In this document: in pieces, positions 22,671 through 30,859 of the stretch | How positions within the stretch are numbered: position 1 is the stretch's first letter | How the letters are laid out: each line of letters opens with the position of its first letter | NCBI GenBank assembly: GCA_021325235.1 | Contig: JAJPHN010000018.1 | Span: 1-38,801, forward strand | Reading direction: 5' to 3' | DNA from: Terriglobia bacterium | GTDB taxonomy: Bacteria > Acidobacteriota > Terriglobia > Bryobacterales > Bryobacteraceae | DNA: 38,801 nt | Notes under the pieces: generated by a model | The model's input: the letters and a program-made list of their open reading frames with translations, nothing else | Told to the model about the DNA's origin: nothing | The model's database searches: none | Program-made: the position numbers and the translations under genes

Positions 22671-22720
22671 GGATTGCTTATGTGTGACACACCCAGCCTA
22701 TGACTCGTTGCAGCGAAAAT

Positions 22721-23770
22721 TCAGACCGATGCAGCAGCGGCGCGGGGCGGCTGATCGGAAGAAGTCTCCTCGTCGATATAGGAGAAGCGCTGCGTGCGGT
22801 GCAGATAGTAGTAGACAGCCAGGAGCGTGAGCATGAAGAGCGCCAGAACTACCATGCCGATCGCAAAGCGTTCGAGCAGACGCACGGGGGCGGCGGCTAC
22901 ATGCTCATCTTCGCTAACCGTGACGACCCAGCCAAGATTCGGGAAGTGCTGTTTCAAGCCCGTGCTGGCATAGCCGACAACATACGGGCCGCGAGCGAGA
23001 TCGGCGGTTACCCAACCAGTCTGGCTGCCTTGATTTGTGCCGAGCGAATCCCGCACGAAATCAAATTCGGGAGACTTCACGCGCGCAAAAACATCGGCAT
23101 TGGGACCGCTCACGACGACTCCGTCATCGTTCACGAGAGAGGCGCGTGCACCGCTGCCAATCTGATCCTGGCGGAAGGGCGTGAGCACCTCGTTGATGTT
23201 GACGGCGGCGGTGAGAACGCCAATGGTGTGGCCGGTCTGGTCGGCGACCGGTACGCCGATATTCACGTAGTTGGCTTTGGCCAGCGAATCATCGAGAATG
23301 TCGCTGATCCTGGTGGTGCCTTGTCCGTTGTTATAGACCGATTGCCACTGGGCGTCCTGGGCATAAGATACCTGCGAAGGCCGCTGCGACGAGGCAACCA
23401 CATTGGCGTTGGAGTCGGTCACAACGATGGAGAGATAACGCGGGTCCATGGTCTTCTGCTGGTGCAGAATTGCCGAGGCGTTGGCATCGAGCGAGCCCTT
23501 GGTTTTTCCGGCGTTCTGGACCGCGTTGACCACGGCCGGATTGCTCGCCAGCACGCCGGTATCGATGACGCGTTCATGGACGAATTGGGTCACCTGATTG
23601 GCGTAAAGCTGCGCCATTGCCTTGAAATTGGAGCCGACATTATTGTCGAGGGTCTTGTCGCTGCGCTCCGTCAGGACGAGACCGAGAATGCTCAGCGGCA
23701 CGATCACAATCATCAGCGCGAGCAAGAGTTTTGTGATAGAAACGCGAACTTCCAGCCGATCCACAGACAT
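22721..23770 (-). CDS. Membrane-bound Cache-domain sensor without output domain
   Basis: A 349-residue protein with an N-terminal TM (about 11-33, ITKLLLALMIVIVPLSILGL). A large extracytoplasmic double-Cache domain follows (YLSIVVTDSNANVVASSQRP, then IGVPVADQTGHTIGVLTAAV and SLVNDDGVVVSGP). A second TM lies at about 304-326 (IGMVVLALFMLTLLAVYYYL). Only about 22 residues come after the last helix, so there is no HAMP, kinase, cyclase or methyl-accepting domain. It may pass its signal to a separate partner. ATG 23770 is chosen over an upstream in-frame start because GGAGG lies five to nine bases before it. Its leader is highly structured (see 23771-23932). Confidence 0.88.
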   Translation of the reverse strand: MSVDRLEVRVSITKLLLALMIVIVPLSILGLVLTERSDKTLDNNVGSNFKAMAQLYANQVTQFVHERVIDTGVLASNPAVVNAVQNAGKTKGSLDANASAILHQQKTMDPRYLSIVVTDSNANVVASSQRPSQVSYAQDAQWQSVYNNGQGTTRISDILDDSLAKANYVNIGVPVADQTGHTIGVLTAAVNINEVLTPFRQDQIGSGARASLVNDDGVVVSGPNADVFARVKSPEFDFVRDSLGTNQGSQTGWVTADLARGPYVVGYASTGLKQHFPNLGWVVTVSEDEHVAAAPVRLLERFAIGMVVLALFMLTLLAVYYYLHRTQRFSYIDEETSSDQPPRAAAASV

Positions 23771-23932
23771 GGCAGACCTCCTCTGCTGGTCTTCAAATCG
23801 AAGACGAGCCATGTCCCGGGTCGCGGCCTGGCGCTTGCTGCCGGTTGGGTGTTCACCTCGGTTGGGAGGTAATCCGGCGTAGTATGCCAGTTCGTGCTCG
23901 GCCTAACATGGCCGCTTCCCGATTCAATATTA
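23771..23932 (-). ncRNA. Candidate structured cis-regulatory leader of the Cache gene
   Basis: Reading the minus strand, four nested helices are seen. H1 is GCCATGT (23912-23906) with ACATGGC (23814-23808). H2 is CTGGC (23890-23886) with GCCAG (23832-23828). H3 is GCCGG (23878-23874) with CCGGC (23844-23840). H4 is ACCTC (23870-23866) with GAGGT (23859-23855). H2 and H3 flank a 7x7 internal loop, and CCCAACCG occurs twice around H4. Closer to the start codon two mutually exclusive hairpins follow: GTCTTC-GATTT-GAAGAC (23805-23789) and AGACC/GGTCT (23792-23788 with 23778-23774). The second pairs part of the Shine-Dalgarno GGAGG (23781-23777). This looks like an aptamer plus a translational switch. 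A weak -10 (TAATAT, 23932-23927) would start the transcript just before H1. I do not recognise it as a common riboswitch class. Confidence 0.5.
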
Positions 23933-24000
23933 CTCCAAATAACGGAGACCGTATAGGGGATTAGTGAGCCGTTTTTGGGACGAGCGAAAAGCTGGATCGG

Positions 24001-24036
24001 CAGGAAAATCGGAGCACCGGTTTGTGGTTCCGGTGC
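24001..24036 (-). terminator. Weak intrinsic terminator candidate after gntR
   Basis: A perfect 7-bp stem GCACCGG/CCGGTGC (24036-24030 with 24020-24014) with a 9-base loop lies 40 bases after the gntR stop on the minus strand. The following sequence has only a four-T run a few bases later, so termination efficiency is doubtful. Confidence 0.4.
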
Positions 24037-24037
24037 G

Positions 24038-24049
24038 GTTGCATACAAT
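24038..24049. promoter_or_regulatory. GntR-like operator variant downstream of gntR
   Basis: GTTGCATACAAT matches the palindrome ATTGTATACAAT at 10 of 12 positions. It lies downstream of gntR and upstream of the Cache-gene leader. It may be a weak regulator site or a chance match. Confidence 0.25.
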
Positions 24050-24075
24050 TGTGCGTGCGATTCGGGAGTATTGGA

Positions 24076-24819
24076 CTATCTGTACCAGCTGCCGCGCTCG
24101 CCGATATTCTGGATCACTTTTTCGAGGCGCTGTGCACCATTCGTCCAGTTCGCCTGTATGCCGGATTCGGCGGTGTCGGCATCACCGTCGGCGATCGCTT
24201 CGATGATGGCGCGGTGCTCATCGACAGACTTTTTGAGATCGTCCAGGATGGCGGTGGCGTATAAGCGCCAGTATCGCTCTGCCTGAGGCTGAACGATCTT
24301 GTGTAGTTCGAGTAGGCGCGGTCCGGCACAGGCCTCGACGATAGTGCGATGGAAACTCATATCAAGGTCGAAGACGCGATTGGCCTGCGAACGATTCTTA
24401 TCGCGCAACGCGGCGAGGCTGCTGTTGTATTCGCGAAGCCTTCGCACAAGCACGCTGCGGGCGGCATGAGGAAGATGTGCGGTGAGGCGGGCAGCTAATC
24501 CTTCCAGGTGGCCAATGATCGAGTAAAGTTCGCGGGCATCTTCCTTAGTCAGGGGCGCAACGATCACGCGCGTTTTCGGGCCATCGCCGGAGGAAACCAC
24601 GTAGCGCTCGCGCTGAAGCCAGTGAAGCGCGCCGCGAATGGGGGTTCGGCTGAATCCAAGACGCTCGGCAAGTTCGGCCTCAATGAGCCAGGTCCCGGGC
24701 AGCAGTTTGCCGCTGACGATCAACTCGCGCAGTTCGTGGAAAGCGAGGCGAAGACTATGGCCCCGGTCGGATTTGGCGCGTTTTCTGACACGCGCGGGTG
24801 TGCGAGCCAAAGAGGACAT
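24076..24819 (-). CDS. GntR-family (FCD) transcriptional regulator
   Basis: A 247-residue regulator. The winged helix lies at about 22-90 (LRELIVSGKLLPGTWLIEAEL, then AERLGFSRTPIRGALHWLQR). The FCD ligand domain follows at about 95-230. FCD domains normally bind a metal through an Asp and three His; here Asp153, His157 (DMSFH) and His202 (EHRAI) are visible. The last His position near 224 reads ANWTN, so the metal site may be altered. The gene is the last of the hydroxyproline operon, two bases after the transporter gene, and probably senses hydroxyproline or a pathway intermediate. The likely operator is the palindrome ATTGTATACAAT at the operon start. The start at ATG 24819 is normal. Confidence 0.93.
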   Translation of the reverse strand: MSSLARTPARVRKRAKSDRGHSLRLAFHELRELIVSGKLLPGTWLIEAELAERLGFSRTPIRGALHWLQRERYVVSSGDGPKTRVIVAPLTKEDARELYSIIGHLEGLAARLTAHLPHAARSVLVRRLREYNSSLAALRDKNRSQANRVFDLDMSFHRTIVEACAGPRLLELHKIVQPQAERYWRLYATAILDDLKKSVDEHRAIIEAIADGDADTAESGIQANWTNGAQRLEKVIQNIGERGSWYR

Positions 24820-24821
24820 GA

Positions 24822-26336
24822 TTACAGATTCGTGGAGGAACGGCCCGAATAGAATTCGTTACTGGATACAATTCTATCGGTACGGCGTTGGTAACGGGTG
24901 AGTACGGCATAAACAGGAATGCCGAGAAGCACAATGGCAATGCCGGGCCAGGTGGTGGCGGGACGAAATACGAGCAGGCAGATTACAACGGCGGTAGCGC
25001 CGGCAATGTAGAGAACCGGCACGAGCGGATATGCCGGAACTCGGAACGGGCGGGCGGCGTCAGGACGCAGTTTTCGCAACCGGATGACACCGGCAACAGT
25101 GGCGATATAGAACAGAAGAGCCGCCGAGATCACGTAGTCGAGCAGATTGCTGTAGAGATTTCCGTACTGATTGGTGGCGGGATCGAAGGTGCGGGGCAGA
25201 ACGAGAACAGCAGCCCACATAGCTTGGATCCACAGCGAGCGGCCGGGAACATGATGGCGATTGAGCCTGGCGGCAGCGGAGAAAAACAGACCGTCGTGGG
25301 CCATGGCGTAGAAGACGCGCGGCCCGGCGAGTATGAGGCTGTTGAGGCATCCGAAGGTCGAGATCATGATGGCGGCGGCCATCAGGAATGCTCCGCGTGC
25401 AGGAAAGATCGAGTTCATCATGGCGGTTGCAACGCGATCGCCGGCCACGTGCTGGATCGCGGGGAACGGTAGAGCGACCAGATAAGCCACATTCGCCAAT
25501 AAGTACAGGGCAATGACGAGAGCGCTGCCGATGGCAAGGGCAAGGGGGAGATTGCGGCGCGGATGTTTCACCTCAGCGCCAGCAAAGGTTACGTTGTGCC
25601 AGGAATCGGCGGAAAACAACGAGCCCGATTGCGCGACACAGATAGCAATGAAAAGTCCGAGACCGGACGAGCTTGTGTTGCGGCTCCAGAAATGCTGAAG
25701 GTTCTGCGCAACGGCCGCTGAATGCCAGCCGATGCTGAAGCCGATGACGATGAGCGCCGCGAGCGCGACGAGTTTCGCGACGGTAGAAACGTTCTGGACG
25801 AACTTACCGTAACGCAGGCCGCGGCTATTGGTCCAGGTCAGGAGCGCAATGATAGAAAGCGCGATGAGCTGAGCAGTGGAAAGCGAGACGGCGTAATGCG
25901 AGGAGATGCGGAGCGGCGCAATGATATAGCGCGTTTCCGAAATAGCCGGCCACAACACACCACAGAAGCGGGCGAAAGCGACGGCAACGGCAGCGATGGT
26001 GCCGGTCTGGATCACGCTGAAGAGAGTCCAGCCATAGAGGAATCCGGCAACGGGAGAAAACGCTTCGCGCAAATAGATGTACATGCCGCCGGCGCCGGGC
26101 AGCATGGAGGCGAGTTCACCATAGGAGAGCGCGGCGGAGACGGTGAGCAGGCCCGCGAAGATCCAGGCGGCGAGAAGTCCCGCGGGGCTGCCAATGATGC
26201 GAGCCATCTCAGCGGGAACGATAAAGATGCCGGAACCGATCATCACGCCGGCAACGACCATGACAGAGTCGAACAGAGACAACTCGCGCAGGAAGGTAGC
26301 GGGTCGGGCGGCCGCCGATGCGTTCACTCTGCTCAC
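24822..26336 (-). CDS. APC-superfamily transporter, probable hydroxyproline uptake
   Basis: A 504-residue permease with about 12 TM helices. The first helix has the classical GVMIGSGIF signature (GSGIF at 34-38), as in LAT/amino-acid-exchanger members. GELASMLPGAGGMYIYLREA follows, and TM6 has SADSWHNVTFAGAEVKHPRR. It sits inside the hydroxyproline catabolic operon, so hydroxyproline or proline-type amino acids are the likely substrate; this is inferred from context only. The start is a GTG at 26336, 13 bases after the deaminase gene. The C-terminal coding region contains a sequence related to the GntR operator (24861-24872). Confidence 0.9.
   Translation of the reverse strand: MSRVNASAAARPATFLRELSLFDSVMVVAGVMIGSGIFIVPAEMARIIGSPAGLLAAWIFAGLLTVSAALSYGELASMLPGAGGMYIYLREAFSPVAGFLYGWTLFSVIQTGTIAAVAVAFARFCGVLWPAISETRYIIAPLRISSHYAVSLSTAQLIALSIIALLTWTNSRGLRYGKFVQNVSTVAKLVALAALIVIGFSIGWHSAAVAQNLQHFWSRNTSSSGLGLFIAICVAQSGSLFSADSWHNVTFAGAEVKHPRRNLPLALAIGSALVIALYLLANVAYLVALPFPAIQHVAGDRVATAMMNSIFPARGAFLMAAAIMISTFGCLNSLILAGPRVFYAMAHDGLFFSAAARLNRHHVPGRSLWIQAMWAAVLVLPRTFDPATNQYGNLYSNLLDYVISAALLFYIATVAGVIRLRKLRPDAARPFRVPAYPLVPVLYIAGATAVVICLLVFRPATTWPGIAIVLLGIPVYAVLTRYQRRTDRIVSSNEFYSGRSSTNL
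24861..24872. promoter_or_regulatory. GntR-like operator variant upstream of gntR
   Basis: ACTGGATACAAT matches the palindrome ATTGTATACAAT at 10 of 12 positions and lies 42-53 bases before the gntR start, inside the end of the transporter gene. It could allow separate autoregulation of gntR. Confidence 0.3.
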
Positions 26337-26349
26337 GAGAATCGCGCGC

Positions 26350-27267
26350 TCAATGTGTTTGAAAAACGGGCGCGGGTTTGTCTTTCAGGGCCTTCGCGAT
26401 GATGCTATGAGCATCCTCGAGTTCGTCACCTTCGAGCGGCAAGCGCGGCGGACGGACACGAGAACTGCCCATTCCGACCTCTTGCTGCACGAGCTTGATG
26501 AGCTGGACAAATTTTGGGACGGTGTCCATGCGAAGAAGCGGTAAGAACCAATGATAAAGGGCGAGGGCCTGCGAGGTCTGCCGATTCCTGGTGAGTTCGA
26601 AGAGCGCGACCGACTCAGCCGGGAACGCGTTCGCCAGGCCGGCAATCCAGCCCACAGCACCCATCGGAATGGATTCGACAATGGCATCATCAACGCCGAC
26701 GAGAATGCGGAGACGTTGCTCCGGAATCAATTCTCGTAACGCAATCACACGTCGCACATCGGCGCTCGATTCCTTTATGGCCAACAAATTCGGATGCTCA
26801 TCTGCAAGTTCGAGCACCTGATGCGGGGCAAAATCGACGCCGTACGCGATGGGATTGTTATATAGCATGCAGGGCAGATCGGTTGCGCGTATGACGGCAC
26901 TCACGTGCGCTTTGATTTCGCGCCAGTCGCCCGGATAGACGTACGGGGGCAGAACCATCAGACCGCGGCAACCGGCGGCAGCGGCATCCTCTGCGATAGA
27001 AACAGCTTCGGCAGTGCTGAGCGCGGCAACGCCGGCGACGACGGGCGCGCGCTGTGCCAGCGATCGAACGCAGGTACGAAGAATCTCGCCTTTTTCGCGT
27101 GGGAGCAAGGTAGCGCCTTCGCCAAGAGATCCGAGCGCGACGATTCCGGTGCAGCCGTTATCGATAAGCCAGCGGCAATGGCGCGCCAGGAAATCGTGAT
27201 CGACGCTGAGATCGTCGCGAAAGGGTGTGGTGATGGCGGGGATGACGCCTTGCCAGTCGAGATTCAT
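26350..27267 (-). CDS. DapA-family lyase, probable 1-pyrroline-4-hydroxy-2-carboxylate deaminase
   Basis: A 305-residue class I aldolase-type enzyme of the dihydrodipicolinate synthase family. The Schiff-base lysine is Lys165 (LLAIKESSAD), Tyr136 sits in LYNNPIAYG, and the substrate loop is GSLGEGATL (46-54). True DapA has GTTGE at that loop, and the family member in hydroxyproline clusters is the deaminase that turns 1-pyrroline-4-hydroxy-2-carboxylate into 2-oxoglutarate semialdehyde plus ammonia. That role is inferred from the adjacent epimerase and dehydrogenase genes. The start overlaps the stop of the alpha-subunit gene by four bases. Length and motifs are intact. Confidence 0.9.
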   Translation of the reverse strand: MNLDWQGVIPAITTPFRDDLSVDHDFLARHCRWLIDNGCTGIVALGSLGEGATLLPREKGEILRTCVRSLAQRAPVVAGVAALSTAEAVSIAEDAAAAGCRGLMVLPPYVYPGDWREIKAHVSAVIRATDLPCMLYNNPIAYGVDFAPHQVLELADEHPNLLAIKESSADVRRVIALRELIPEQRLRILVGVDDAIVESIPMGAVGWIAGLANAFPAESVALFELTRNRQTSQALALYHWFLPLLRMDTVPKFVQLIKLVQQEVGMGSSRVRPPRLPLEGDELEDAHSIIAKALKDKPAPVFQTH

Positions 27268-28529
27268 GAGTGTTCTGCTCCTTCGGTTATGAGGCTTGCC
27301 AGACGCGCCGGGAAAATCGGCGGACGGATGGATGACGGCTCCCAGCCGAATAAGGCTTCGACAATCGGGCCGCAGATACGGCCCTGGCAGGGCCCCATAC
27401 CGCAGCGATGATGCAGCTTTGCGGAACGCCAGGAGTGCACGCTTTCGAGGCTGGCGCGAATGACGTCTTCACAGCGGCAGATAATGGTGTCCTCTCGAAC
27501 GAGCGAGAGTAACTGGGGGCGGAGAGCGAATGTGCGGGTAAGCAAATTTGCGAAACGCTGTGCGCGCCGGCGGCTGGAGAAGAATTTCTTGGCCCGTTCA
27601 AGCTCTCCGGCAGCAGCATAGCCGGCGATTTGTCCTTCGAGCAGCGCCAGATCCGCGCCGCCGATGCCGGTACATTCGCCGGCCGCATAGACGTGATCGA
27701 TGGAAGTGCGCTGAAACGCATCGACCGAAACAGCGGTTGCATTCCGGGCACAGCCGAGCAACTGCGCGACCTCCAGATTGGGCGTGAGCCCGTAGGAGAG
27801 CGCGAGATAGTCGCAGGGCTCGAACCAGCTACGCGCGCCGCGGCGCAAGCGAACGGCTTCGAGAGAGCGCGCCCCATGAGCAGATTCGACCCAGCAACCC
27901 GGGAGGTAGGGAATACCGGCAAGAGTGGCACGGAGTTGAAGCGTTTGCCACAGTTTCGCAGGATGGAAAAGAAGATGGGCAGCGAAGCGGAGCAAGGAAG
28001 ACCAGGACGCCTGCTCGGCGATGCATTTGACGATGGCGCCGTGGGCATGGAAAAACGCTGCGGTAGCGAGTAATAAAGGACCGCTTCCGGCGACCACAAC
28101 GCGTTTGCGATCGAGCGAGAGGCCGGATTTTGCGAGCGCCTGCAATCCGCCGGCGGCCATGATGTTTGGCAGCGTCCAACCAGGAAAGGGTAACAGAAGT
28201 TCGCGAGCACCGGTGGCCAGGACGAGCCGATCGTATACAATTTCGTATGCATTTGACGGAGTTTCGATCAACAACGTCCGGCGAACCGGATCACAGGCTA
28301 TGACCTGCGCGGACGGAACGAACTCTACGGGCAGGGTGGAGAGCCGATTGAACCAGCCATTGTCTGGACTGCCAGCGACTTTCTGATTTCGCCAGATCTG
28401 TCCGCCGGCGCGCGGGTTGTCGTCGATCAGGGTGACGCGGGCGCCTGATTCTGCGGCACGAATGGCGGCAGCGAGTCCGGCTGGACCGGCACCTACAACC
28501 AGGATCCGCGTTTGGCTTCGCGCGCTCAT
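27264..28529 (-). CDS. D-hydroxyproline dehydrogenase alpha subunit-like flavoprotein
   Basis: A 421-residue FAD/NAD(P)-type oxidoreductase. The FAD fold starts with ILVVGAGPAGLAAAIRAAES (GxGxxG at 13-18). A second dinucleotide fold lies at about 143-160 (RVVVAGSGPLLLATAAF), and YAAGECTGIGGADLALLEGQ is the FAD-closing segment. The C-terminal BFD-like domain carries Cys351-x-Cys353 (CRCEDV) and Cys376-x4-Cys381 (CGMGPC) for a [2Fe-2S] cluster. This matches the alpha subunit of the heterotrimeric D-hydroxyproline dehydrogenase and the related HcnB/opine-oxidase family. It overlaps its neighbours by four bases on both sides. The coding region contains an 11/12 match to the GntR palindrome (28230-28241). 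Confidence 0.9.
   Translation of the reverse strand: MSARSQTRILVVGAGPAGLAAAIRAAESGARVTLIDDNPRAGGQIWRNQKVAGSPDNGWFNRLSTLPVEFVPSAQVIACDPVRRTLLIETPSNAYEIVYDRLVLATGARELLLPFPGWTLPNIMAAGGLQALAKSGLSLDRKRVVVAGSGPLLLATAAFFHAHGAIVKCIAEQASWSSLLRFAAHLLFHPAKLWQTLQLRATLAGIPYLPGCWVESAHGARSLEAVRLRRGARSWFEPCDYLALSYGLTPNLEVAQLLGCARNATAVSVDAFQRTSIDHVYAAGECTGIGGADLALLEGQIAGYAAAGELERAKKFFSSRRRAQRFANLLTRTFALRPQLLSLVREDTIICRCEDVIRASLESVHSWRSAKLHHRCGMGPCQGRICGPIVEALFGWEPSSIRPPIFPARLASLITEGAEHS
28230..28251. promoter_or_regulatory. Second copy of the extended GntR-like motif inside the alpha gene
   Basis: ATCGTATACAAT (28230-28241) matches the operon-start palindrome at 11 of 12 positions, and GTATACAAT-NN-CGTATGCA (28233-28251) is shared with 30869-30887 at all 17 defined bases. 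It lies within codons for NAYEIVYD. Whether it is a working internal operator or a coincidence is open. Confidence 0.35.
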
Positions 28530-28786
28530 TCTTGACTCGTGTTGACCTGCATTCCGGGTTCACACAATACCTGGCAACTGCGGCGATTCGGCCGGCCGTT
28601 GATCGTGACCCGGCATTCGAAGCAGATGCCCATACCGCAGACAGGTCCGCGCGGTTCGCCGGAGACGGAGGTGCGAAATACATTAATACCGGAACAAAGC
28701 AAAGCGGCGGCTACGCTGGTGCCCACTGCGACCTCGACAGGATCGCCATTGATCAGGAGCGTAAACCTTTCAATGTGCGAGCGCAT
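28526..28786 (-). CDS. [2Fe-2S] ferredoxin-like gamma subunit of D-hydroxyproline dehydrogenase
   Basis: An 86-residue plant-type [2Fe-2S] protein. Its cluster ligands are Cys50-x4-Cys55-x2-Cys58 and Cys71, in the segments CGMGICFECRV and RRSCQVLC. It resembles the small HcnA-like subunit that accompanies the two flavoprotein subunits in heterotrimeric D-hydroxyproline dehydrogenases. ATG 28786 is chosen because GAGAGAG lies just upstream and the N-terminus fits the family; a longer frame to 28837 looks spurious. The start lies 17 bases inside the end of the beta-subunit gene, and the stop overlaps the alpha-subunit start by four bases. Confidence 0.9.
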   Translation of the reverse strand: MRSHIERFTLLINGDPVEVAVGTSVAAALLCSGINVFRTSVSGEPRGPVCGMGICFECRVTINGRPNRRSCQVLCEPGMQVNTSQE

Positions 28787-29884
28787 AGACTCTCTCTGGC
28801 GCGTAGGGAACGTGAGGAATAGCGGAGGCGCGGCCAAGAATGATATCGGCTAATAAACGAGCGGTTCCGAGCGAAGTCGTGATCCCCAAACCCTCGTGTC
28901 CTGCAGCGAGATAGACGTTGCTGCGGCCGGGGCATGGACCGATAAGCGGCAGGTTATCGGGAGTACTGGCGCGAAAGCCGGTCCAAGTACGAATGATGGA
29001 AAACTCGCGCAGCGCTGGCATGTAATCAATGGCGCGGCGCAGCATGCGGTTGAGCATTCGGGCATCGATCGCGGGGTCCTCTGTTCCGTACTGACGCGAT
29101 GAGCCCAACAAAATCTGACCCGTTGCGCGCGGCTGAGCATTGAAAGCGACCGAATCGGCGTCCGAAGAATGGGCATTTTTTAGATAGCCGAGTTCGATCA
29201 ACTGGTGGCGCACAAACTTGGGGTAGCGATCGGTGATGACGAGGTGGCCTTTGCGCGGCCGGATGGAAACTTCGGGAGCGAATTGGCTGACCAAGGTGCC
29301 GTTGGCGAGCACGATTGTTCCGGCAGCGATCCGCGTGCCATTGGAAAGCCTGACAGAGCTGGTGGAAATGTCGATCGCACAAACTCCGATGAGCAATTCG
29401 GCGCCGAAGGACTGGGCGGCACGGGCCAGAAAGAGAGCGGCCGGAGGTGGATACAAGATTGCATCCTGAGGGAGCAGGAGACCGCCGGCAAGACCGTGCC
29501 GGAGATTCGGTTCGGCCTCACGAAGATCCAGCTCATCGAGAATTTGCACCGGCACGCCGCGGCTGGCATAGAAGGCCGCTTTGCGATGTACTTCAGCGAT
29601 CTCCTGCTGATCCGCCGCGACCCAGAGTGCGCCGGCGGCATGATATTCGCAAGCCGGAGGAAGTGTCGCAGAGAGTTCCTGCCAAAGGAGTTGAGAATAG
29701 CGGCAGAGAGCGAATTGCGCTTCGGAATCGTCCATCAGAGCGAGGTGACCCATGCTGGCTGCGGTCGCACCACCGCCGATAACATCGGGCTCGATGAGGA
29801 CCGTGGTTAGACCGGCGCGGGAAAACTCAGCGGCACAGGCACAGCCGACGATGCCGCCACCTACGATGGCTACGTCGTATGATC

Positions 29885-29888
<4 letters not shown>
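28770..29888 (-). CDS. D-hydroxyproline dehydrogenase beta subunit-like (DAO family)
   Basis: A 372-residue FAD-dependent amine oxidoreductase of the D-amino-acid-oxidase family. The FAD-binding fold starts YDVAIVGGGIVGCACAAEFS (GxGxxG within 9-15), with VLIEP at the end of strand 2. The substrate domain includes RTWTGFRASTPDNLPLIGP, and the C-terminal FAD signature is LAAGHEGLGITTSLGTARLL. In the heterotrimeric enzyme this subunit oxidises cis-4-hydroxy-D-proline to 1-pyrroline-4-hydroxy-2-carboxylate. The assignment rests on the neighbouring alpha and gamma subunits and the epimerase. It overlaps the epimerase gene by four bases (29885-29888). Confidence 0.9.

Positions 29889-30859
<971 letters not shown>

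Follow-up and report, generated by a model that had tools for sequence, protein, structure and literature searches.

The analyzed window (the whole stretch of 38,801 nucleotides) carries on its minus strand a gene encoding a dCache_1 protein, preceded by an untranslated leader (Table 1). No output domain was found in this protein by Pfam. The gene start at position 23770 is backed by the alignment of orthologs, and an N-terminal extension of the protein was excluded by stop codons in three related loci (L034, L016 and L036). An open frame on the opposite strand spans the whole Cache gene and enters the leader; it is probably a composition artefact.

Upstream and on the same strand there are genes encoding a proline racemase family protein, a DAO oxidoreductase, a pyridine-nucleotide oxidoreductase, a DHDPS family protein, an amino-acid permease and a GntR-FCD regulator, which we take to be a likely hydroxyproline/amino-acid catabolic cluster. 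Within the part of this cluster extending to position 29500, no ORF clusters with the ORFs of 11 other Cache loci. The search for an operon partner was equally negative: the largest cluster of neighbouring genes is common to only 4 of 12 loci, so the neighbourhood gives no hint of a pathway.

Table 1. Features of the Cache gene and its leader (positions refer to the window)
Feature	Position	Strand	Details
dCache_1 protein gene	22721..23770	-	349 aa; Pfam dCache_1, E 2.6e-18
Start codon ATG	23770-23768	-	
Shine-Dalgarno GGAGG	23781-23777	-	
Antisense open frame	22700-23872	+	390 codons
Upstream gene set	24076-30859	-	
Promoter-like box TTTGGAGTAATAT	23927..23939	-	predicted transcription start near 23921
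P1a, 5′ strand CGGG	23918..23921	-	pairs with 23820-23817; RNAalifold, 10 leaders
Unpaired AA	23917-23916	-	between P1a and P1b
P1b, 5′ strand GCGGC	23911..23915	-	pairs with 23827-23823
P1, 3′ strand GCCGC-GA-CCCG	23817..23827	-	
P2, possible local hairpin GGCC-AUGUUA-GGCC	23900..23913	-	exclusive with P1b
P3 (= H2)	23828..23890	-	enlarged in the window by an insertion of ~50 nt
P4, 5′ strand	23800..23816	-	anti-start GGACAUGGC and anti-SD UCUUC
P4, 3′ strand	23765..23783	-	SD GGAGG and start ATG
H1	23912-23906/23814-23808	-	7 bp
H2	23890-23886/23832-23828	-	5 bp, CUGGC/GCCAG
H3	23878-23874/23844-23840	-	5 bp
H4	23870-23866/23859-23855	-	5 bp
Duplicated CCCAACCG	23866-23859 and 23849-23842	-	
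Hairpin A GUCUUC/GAAGAC	23805-23800/23794-23789	-	competes with the upper part of P4
Hairpin B	23792-23788/23778-23774	-	

The promoter-like box ends 5 nt before the 5′ stem of the leader, which suggests that transcription starts near position 23921. A scan for sigma-70 consensus promoters returned none. The exact sequence TTTGGAGTATNAT is present in 4 of 11 related leaders, and the others, that of the window included, have variants of it. When TTGGAGTATNAT together with GGGA was searched in 30 genomes, all five matches were located at Cache leaders and the backward control gave none; the box of the window deviates from this pattern. TTTGGAGTATNAT was also observed at two other genes (L116 and L118), a few bases upstream of the apparent start codon, hinting at near-leaderless transcripts in the genus.

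Homologs of the Cache protein were detected in 24 of the 100 genomes searched, including the window's own (E ≤ 1e-10); within the genus, 9 of 17 genomes carry ten such genes. Comparison of 19 upstream regions revealed that 11 of them, from ten genomes, share the promoter-like box and a 5′ stem starting 4-7 nt after it. The stem is of the CGGGAAGCGGCC type in ten of these leaders; the remaining one, L013, is diverged and scores 23.1 bits, versus 57-91 bits for the ten leaders from which a covariance model was built. Every one of the ten Cache genes detected in the genus is preceded by the leader, as is one gene of genome G024 (the diverged L013 is among them), and a second gene copy with the leader (L034) is present in the window's own genome. 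The initial annotation had named absence of the element from relatives as evidence against it; this was not the outcome, since leaders of this kind stand before ten close homologs, spread over ten genomes. At eight more distant homologs the leaders are different or shorter, as judged by eye, and a long leader is missing from some. A scan of contigs for homologs yielded 38 loci: nine of the close set, one with 37% identity and 28 with 20-31%.

The related leaders have a common layout, consisting of the promoter-like box, a stem at the 5′ end (P1), a hairpin that varies (P3) and a hairpin at the 3′ end (P4). The distance from P1 to the Shine-Dalgarno sequence (SD) is 26-34 nt in ten of the 11 leaders and 56 nt in one. 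The unpaired AA and GA are invariant in seven leaders and slightly less so in ten. Two alignments were used, one of ten leaders (without L013) and one of seven (without L013, L017, L036 and L010).

Four nested perfect helices of 7, 5, 5 and 5 bp had been proposed as the core of the leader. All four were found on the minus strand (the name H1 was assigned by interpreting that list of lengths), together with the 7x7 internal loop, located between H2 and H3, and the duplicated CCCAACCG. Two further hairpins, A and B, are mutually exclusive as proposed, but they share four bases (23792-23789) and not five; hairpin B reaches the last two bases of GGAGG, in agreement with the statement that one of them pairs with the end of the SD. 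As the fold of the leader, however, H1-H4 did not hold: when forced they gave -61.3 kcal/mol versus a free optimum of -68.4 kcal/mol, i.e. about 7 kcal/mol worse. In the free optimum, CGGG-AA-GCGGCC (23921-23910) pairs with GGCCGC-GA-CCCG (23828-23817), and the partner of GGACAUGGC (23816-23808) is the start-codon region. Forcing P1, H2-H4 and P4 together gave -63.8 kcal/mol, and the form with hairpin A is less stable than that with P4 by about 1 kcal/mol. Both H3 and H4 belong to an insertion of ~50 nt that none of the nine other aligned leaders has and that also contains the CCCAACCG repeat, perhaps a local duplication within 23866-23842. Only H2 (P3) recurs in the other aligned leaders, alongside P1, and hairpin A is weak as a conserved element across the leaders (total z -2.0).

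The window leader is more stable than its dinucleotide shuffles (z -4.04; 0 of 200). Its reverse complement also exceeds them (z -3.22; 2 of 200), and the minus strand is therefore not distinguished by stability alone. A z as low as that of the window leader was reached by 1 of 66 background upstream regions (129-nt regions compared with the 158-nt leader), and a fold z of -2 or less was obtained for only 2 of 11 leaders.

The strands of P1 pair better than controls in which one strand was mononucleotide-shuffled (11 leaders, total z -8.75; below 0.05 individually in eight). RNAalifold recovered P1a, P1b and P3 from both the seven- and the ten-leader alignment, with unfavourable covariation terms (+0.35 and +0.23, respectively). 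Among the seven leaders, 98% of the P1 cells and 82% of the P3 cells are paired; P1 has no double change, and P3 has both-side changes in two of four pairs. The covariation score was matched or exceeded by 28 of 500 column shuffles; sliding the structure by 2 columns gave as many double changes, one slid version having three such pairs. The support for the P1/P3 fold is thus moderate and consists mostly of kept complementarity. In whole-leader ensembles, the probability of P1b exceeds 0.5 in four of ten leaders (L010, L011, L034 and L015). The possible hairpin P2 gave a partner-swap p of 0.013, one of six such tests, and has a probability of at most 0.02 in each of the ten ensembles.

In a reading at the level of DNA, the conserved CGGGAAGCGGCC directly after the promoter box would be a transcription-factor site whose inverted copy forms the stem. 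High conservation of the 5′ strand beside the box, the absence, in seven leaders, of any P1 pair with changes on both sides, and an opposite strand that folds almost as well would fit such an operator. Nevertheless, P3 keeps its pairing through changes on both sides, P1a persists in L036 with a different sequence (CCGGAG/CUCCGG, by eye), and P4 is left unexplained, so we consider this operator very unlikely.

The 3′ hairpin P4 can bring the SD and the start codon into pairing with the strand that follows P1. In the window leader the start is nearly always paired, and the SD about half of the time. Compared with mononucleotide shuffles of one strand, P4 gave a total z of -7.4 and individual values below 0.05 in 8 of 11 leaders; it does not exceed shuffles in L013 (z +1.3), L034 (+1.3) and L017 (-0.2). 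All 11 leaders were used in the strand-pairing and P4-background tests, whose counts concern leaders that are related to one another and a P4 that was defined after the alignment was seen. With a hand-placed segment, a duplex z of -2 or less was obtained for 8 of 11 leaders and for 3 of 68 background genes of the same genome. These genes came from a crude SD-based gene caller that found only 74 genes on ~332 kb, of which 68 were kept, and 66 after removal of two Cache genes. Without those two rows, the ratio was 7 of 11 versus 3 of 66 (Mann-Whitney p 0.001), one borderline leader shifting with the shuffle. When one fixed window was applied to leaders and background alike, 5 of 11 leaders reached this value versus 3 of 66 background genes (p 0.004). 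Pairing of the SD within the 3′ part was 0.72 in leaders and 0.52 in the background (p 0.008); SD accessibility over whole leaders gave p 0.064. From the 3′ part alone, RNAalifold recovered the anti-SD helix UCUUC/GGAGG, with double changes in two of five pairs, at a P4 consensus energy of only -0.58 kcal/mol. The probability of P4 exceeds 0.5 in only three of ten whole-leader ensembles.

These values bear on the view that the leader is a 5′ stem-loop stabilizing the mRNA, with the SD pairing incidental in GC-rich sequence. P1 sits at the predicted 5′ end of the transcript, the diverged L013 retains a long 5′ stem (by eye), and P4 is minor or absent in several whole-leader ensembles, as this view would have it. 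It accounts poorly for pairing at the P4 position above the same-genome background and for an anti-SD helix recovered across leaders; we regard it as rather unlikely.

Co-evolution of the strands was examined by exchanging partners between species for six segment pairings in ten leaders, L013 being left out here as in the ensemble analysis (a first round was run on all 11 leaders and also without L013). The p values were 0.13 for P1b, 0.21 for the 3:4 pairing and 0.50 for the 1:4 pairing, the equivalent of H1, for which no co-evolution was thus found. Over the different tests, p ranged from 0.05 to 0.13 for P1 and from 0.05 to 0.09 for P4; these values are not strong, as a control pairing (loop with SD/start) scored equally well (0.02-0.05). 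The 1:4 pairing dominates the ensembles of L012, L014 and L017, and neither it nor P1b dominates in L016, L036 and L037; none of five tested pairings appears in the whole-leader ensembles of L036 and L037. Such a predicted pattern is compatible with a bistable leader, and also with chance in GC-rich palindromes.

Known RNA classes were searched for in Rfam 15, as the initial annotation had advised, and no match at the gathering threshold was found in the window. Down to E 10, the single match around the leader (E 5.4) lies outside it; down to E 1, ten relative loci gave two matches, both outside the leaders. No tRNA was found. An intrinsic-terminator attenuator was rejected because no terminator-like site (GC hairpin and U-run) occurs before the gene (23700-24080), and a leader based on an upstream ORF because only 4 of 11 leaders have an ATG at the GCGGCCATG position.

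The covariance model built from the ten leaders was run on 237 genomes of the family and on an overlapping sample of 257 genomes of the order, with stricter filters at which weak matches are lost and the diverged L013 is missed. The ten training leaders gave the best scores, and no leader was found before another gene type. Two weak matches of the family scan, one of them recovered in the order scan, fall in open coding frames and were rejected: that in G224 lies inside a frame of 201 codons, and that in G185 inside an open frame of which the 3′ end was translated. Down to E 5, the model found no leader at the eight distant homologs or L061; one match in L038 (E 0.85) falls elsewhere than the leader. 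The leader was thus found only before Cache genes, in one genus and one other genome, and, with no Rfam match, seems unlike a widespread riboswitch common to the genes of a pathway. Literature searches found no published account of it; the available text of one article (PMC8835794) contains both “Cache domain” and “riboswitch”, but covers cGAMP signalling proteins in Geobacter and not such a leader.

It is unlikely, in our estimate, that the leader is a new small-molecule riboswitch with the P1/P3 domain as aptamer and P4 as expression platform. Its two-domain layout, the SD-pairing 3′ hairpin with alternative pairings, the invariant unpaired AA and GA, and a P3 loop variable enough to accommodate an insertion of 50 nt would suit one. 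Nevertheless, the conserved unpaired core is small, the 1:4 and 3:4 pairings show no co-evolution, the neighbouring genes point to no pathway, and a single gene type in so few genomes is involved. A more specific form, a new, narrow acidobacterial class in which a metabolite gates translation of the Cache sensor and a copy of the start-codon sequence lying upstream serves as decoy partner for the anti-start strand, is distinctly unlikely.

With the conserved layout of the leader, the consensus fold of P1 and P3, and P4-type pairing above background established, we conclude that a conserved folded leader probably heads the Cache-gene mRNA and can hide the ribosome-binding site; control of the gene may thus act on translation. 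What stood of the original proposal is therefore that the dCache_1 gene has a structured, conserved leader in which pairing of the ribosome-binding site and start exceeds background; its H1-H4 fold did not stand. Our main reading, to which we give a probability of about one half, is a gene-specific, cis-acting leader for translational control of the Cache membrane protein, in which repression and switching are inferred. Transcription would begin near 23921 and the 5′ end would form stem P1, enclosing hairpin P3. The next 17 nt (23816-23800) would pair with the SD and start-codon region as P4, and the mRNA would by default be poorly translated, as P4 covers both. Opening of P4 would allow more translation. 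Its 5′ strand has an alternative candidate partner in GCCAUGU (23912-23906), a copy of the start sequence located upstream, and the anti-SD part of that strand could instead pair locally as hairpin A. A metabolite, a protein or a small RNA might open P4, or ribosome competition might fix a low output. If regulated, the leader would represent an RNA layer controlling the production of a membrane sensor in acidobacteria, and the element is small enough to be tested with a single hairpin, a single reporter and defined compensating changes.

Translational riboswitches with SD-sequestering platforms include SAM-II, preQ1 and THF. The leader described here resembles them in having a folded upstream domain followed by an SD-hiding helix, and differs in the lack of an Rfam match or a known aptamer core and in its single gene type. 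Acido-1 and Acido-Lenti-1, structured RNAs of Acidobacteria, are given as not cis-regulatory in the available text of their description (PMC2864571); they share the phylum with our leader, which no Rfam model matches. The same text describes the msiK motif, a leader that has the predicted ribosome-binding site within its basal stem; as a possible mechanism the authors put forward feedback in which the gene product would bind (PMC2864571). The gene differs from ours and no Rfam model matches here, but both are structured leaders.
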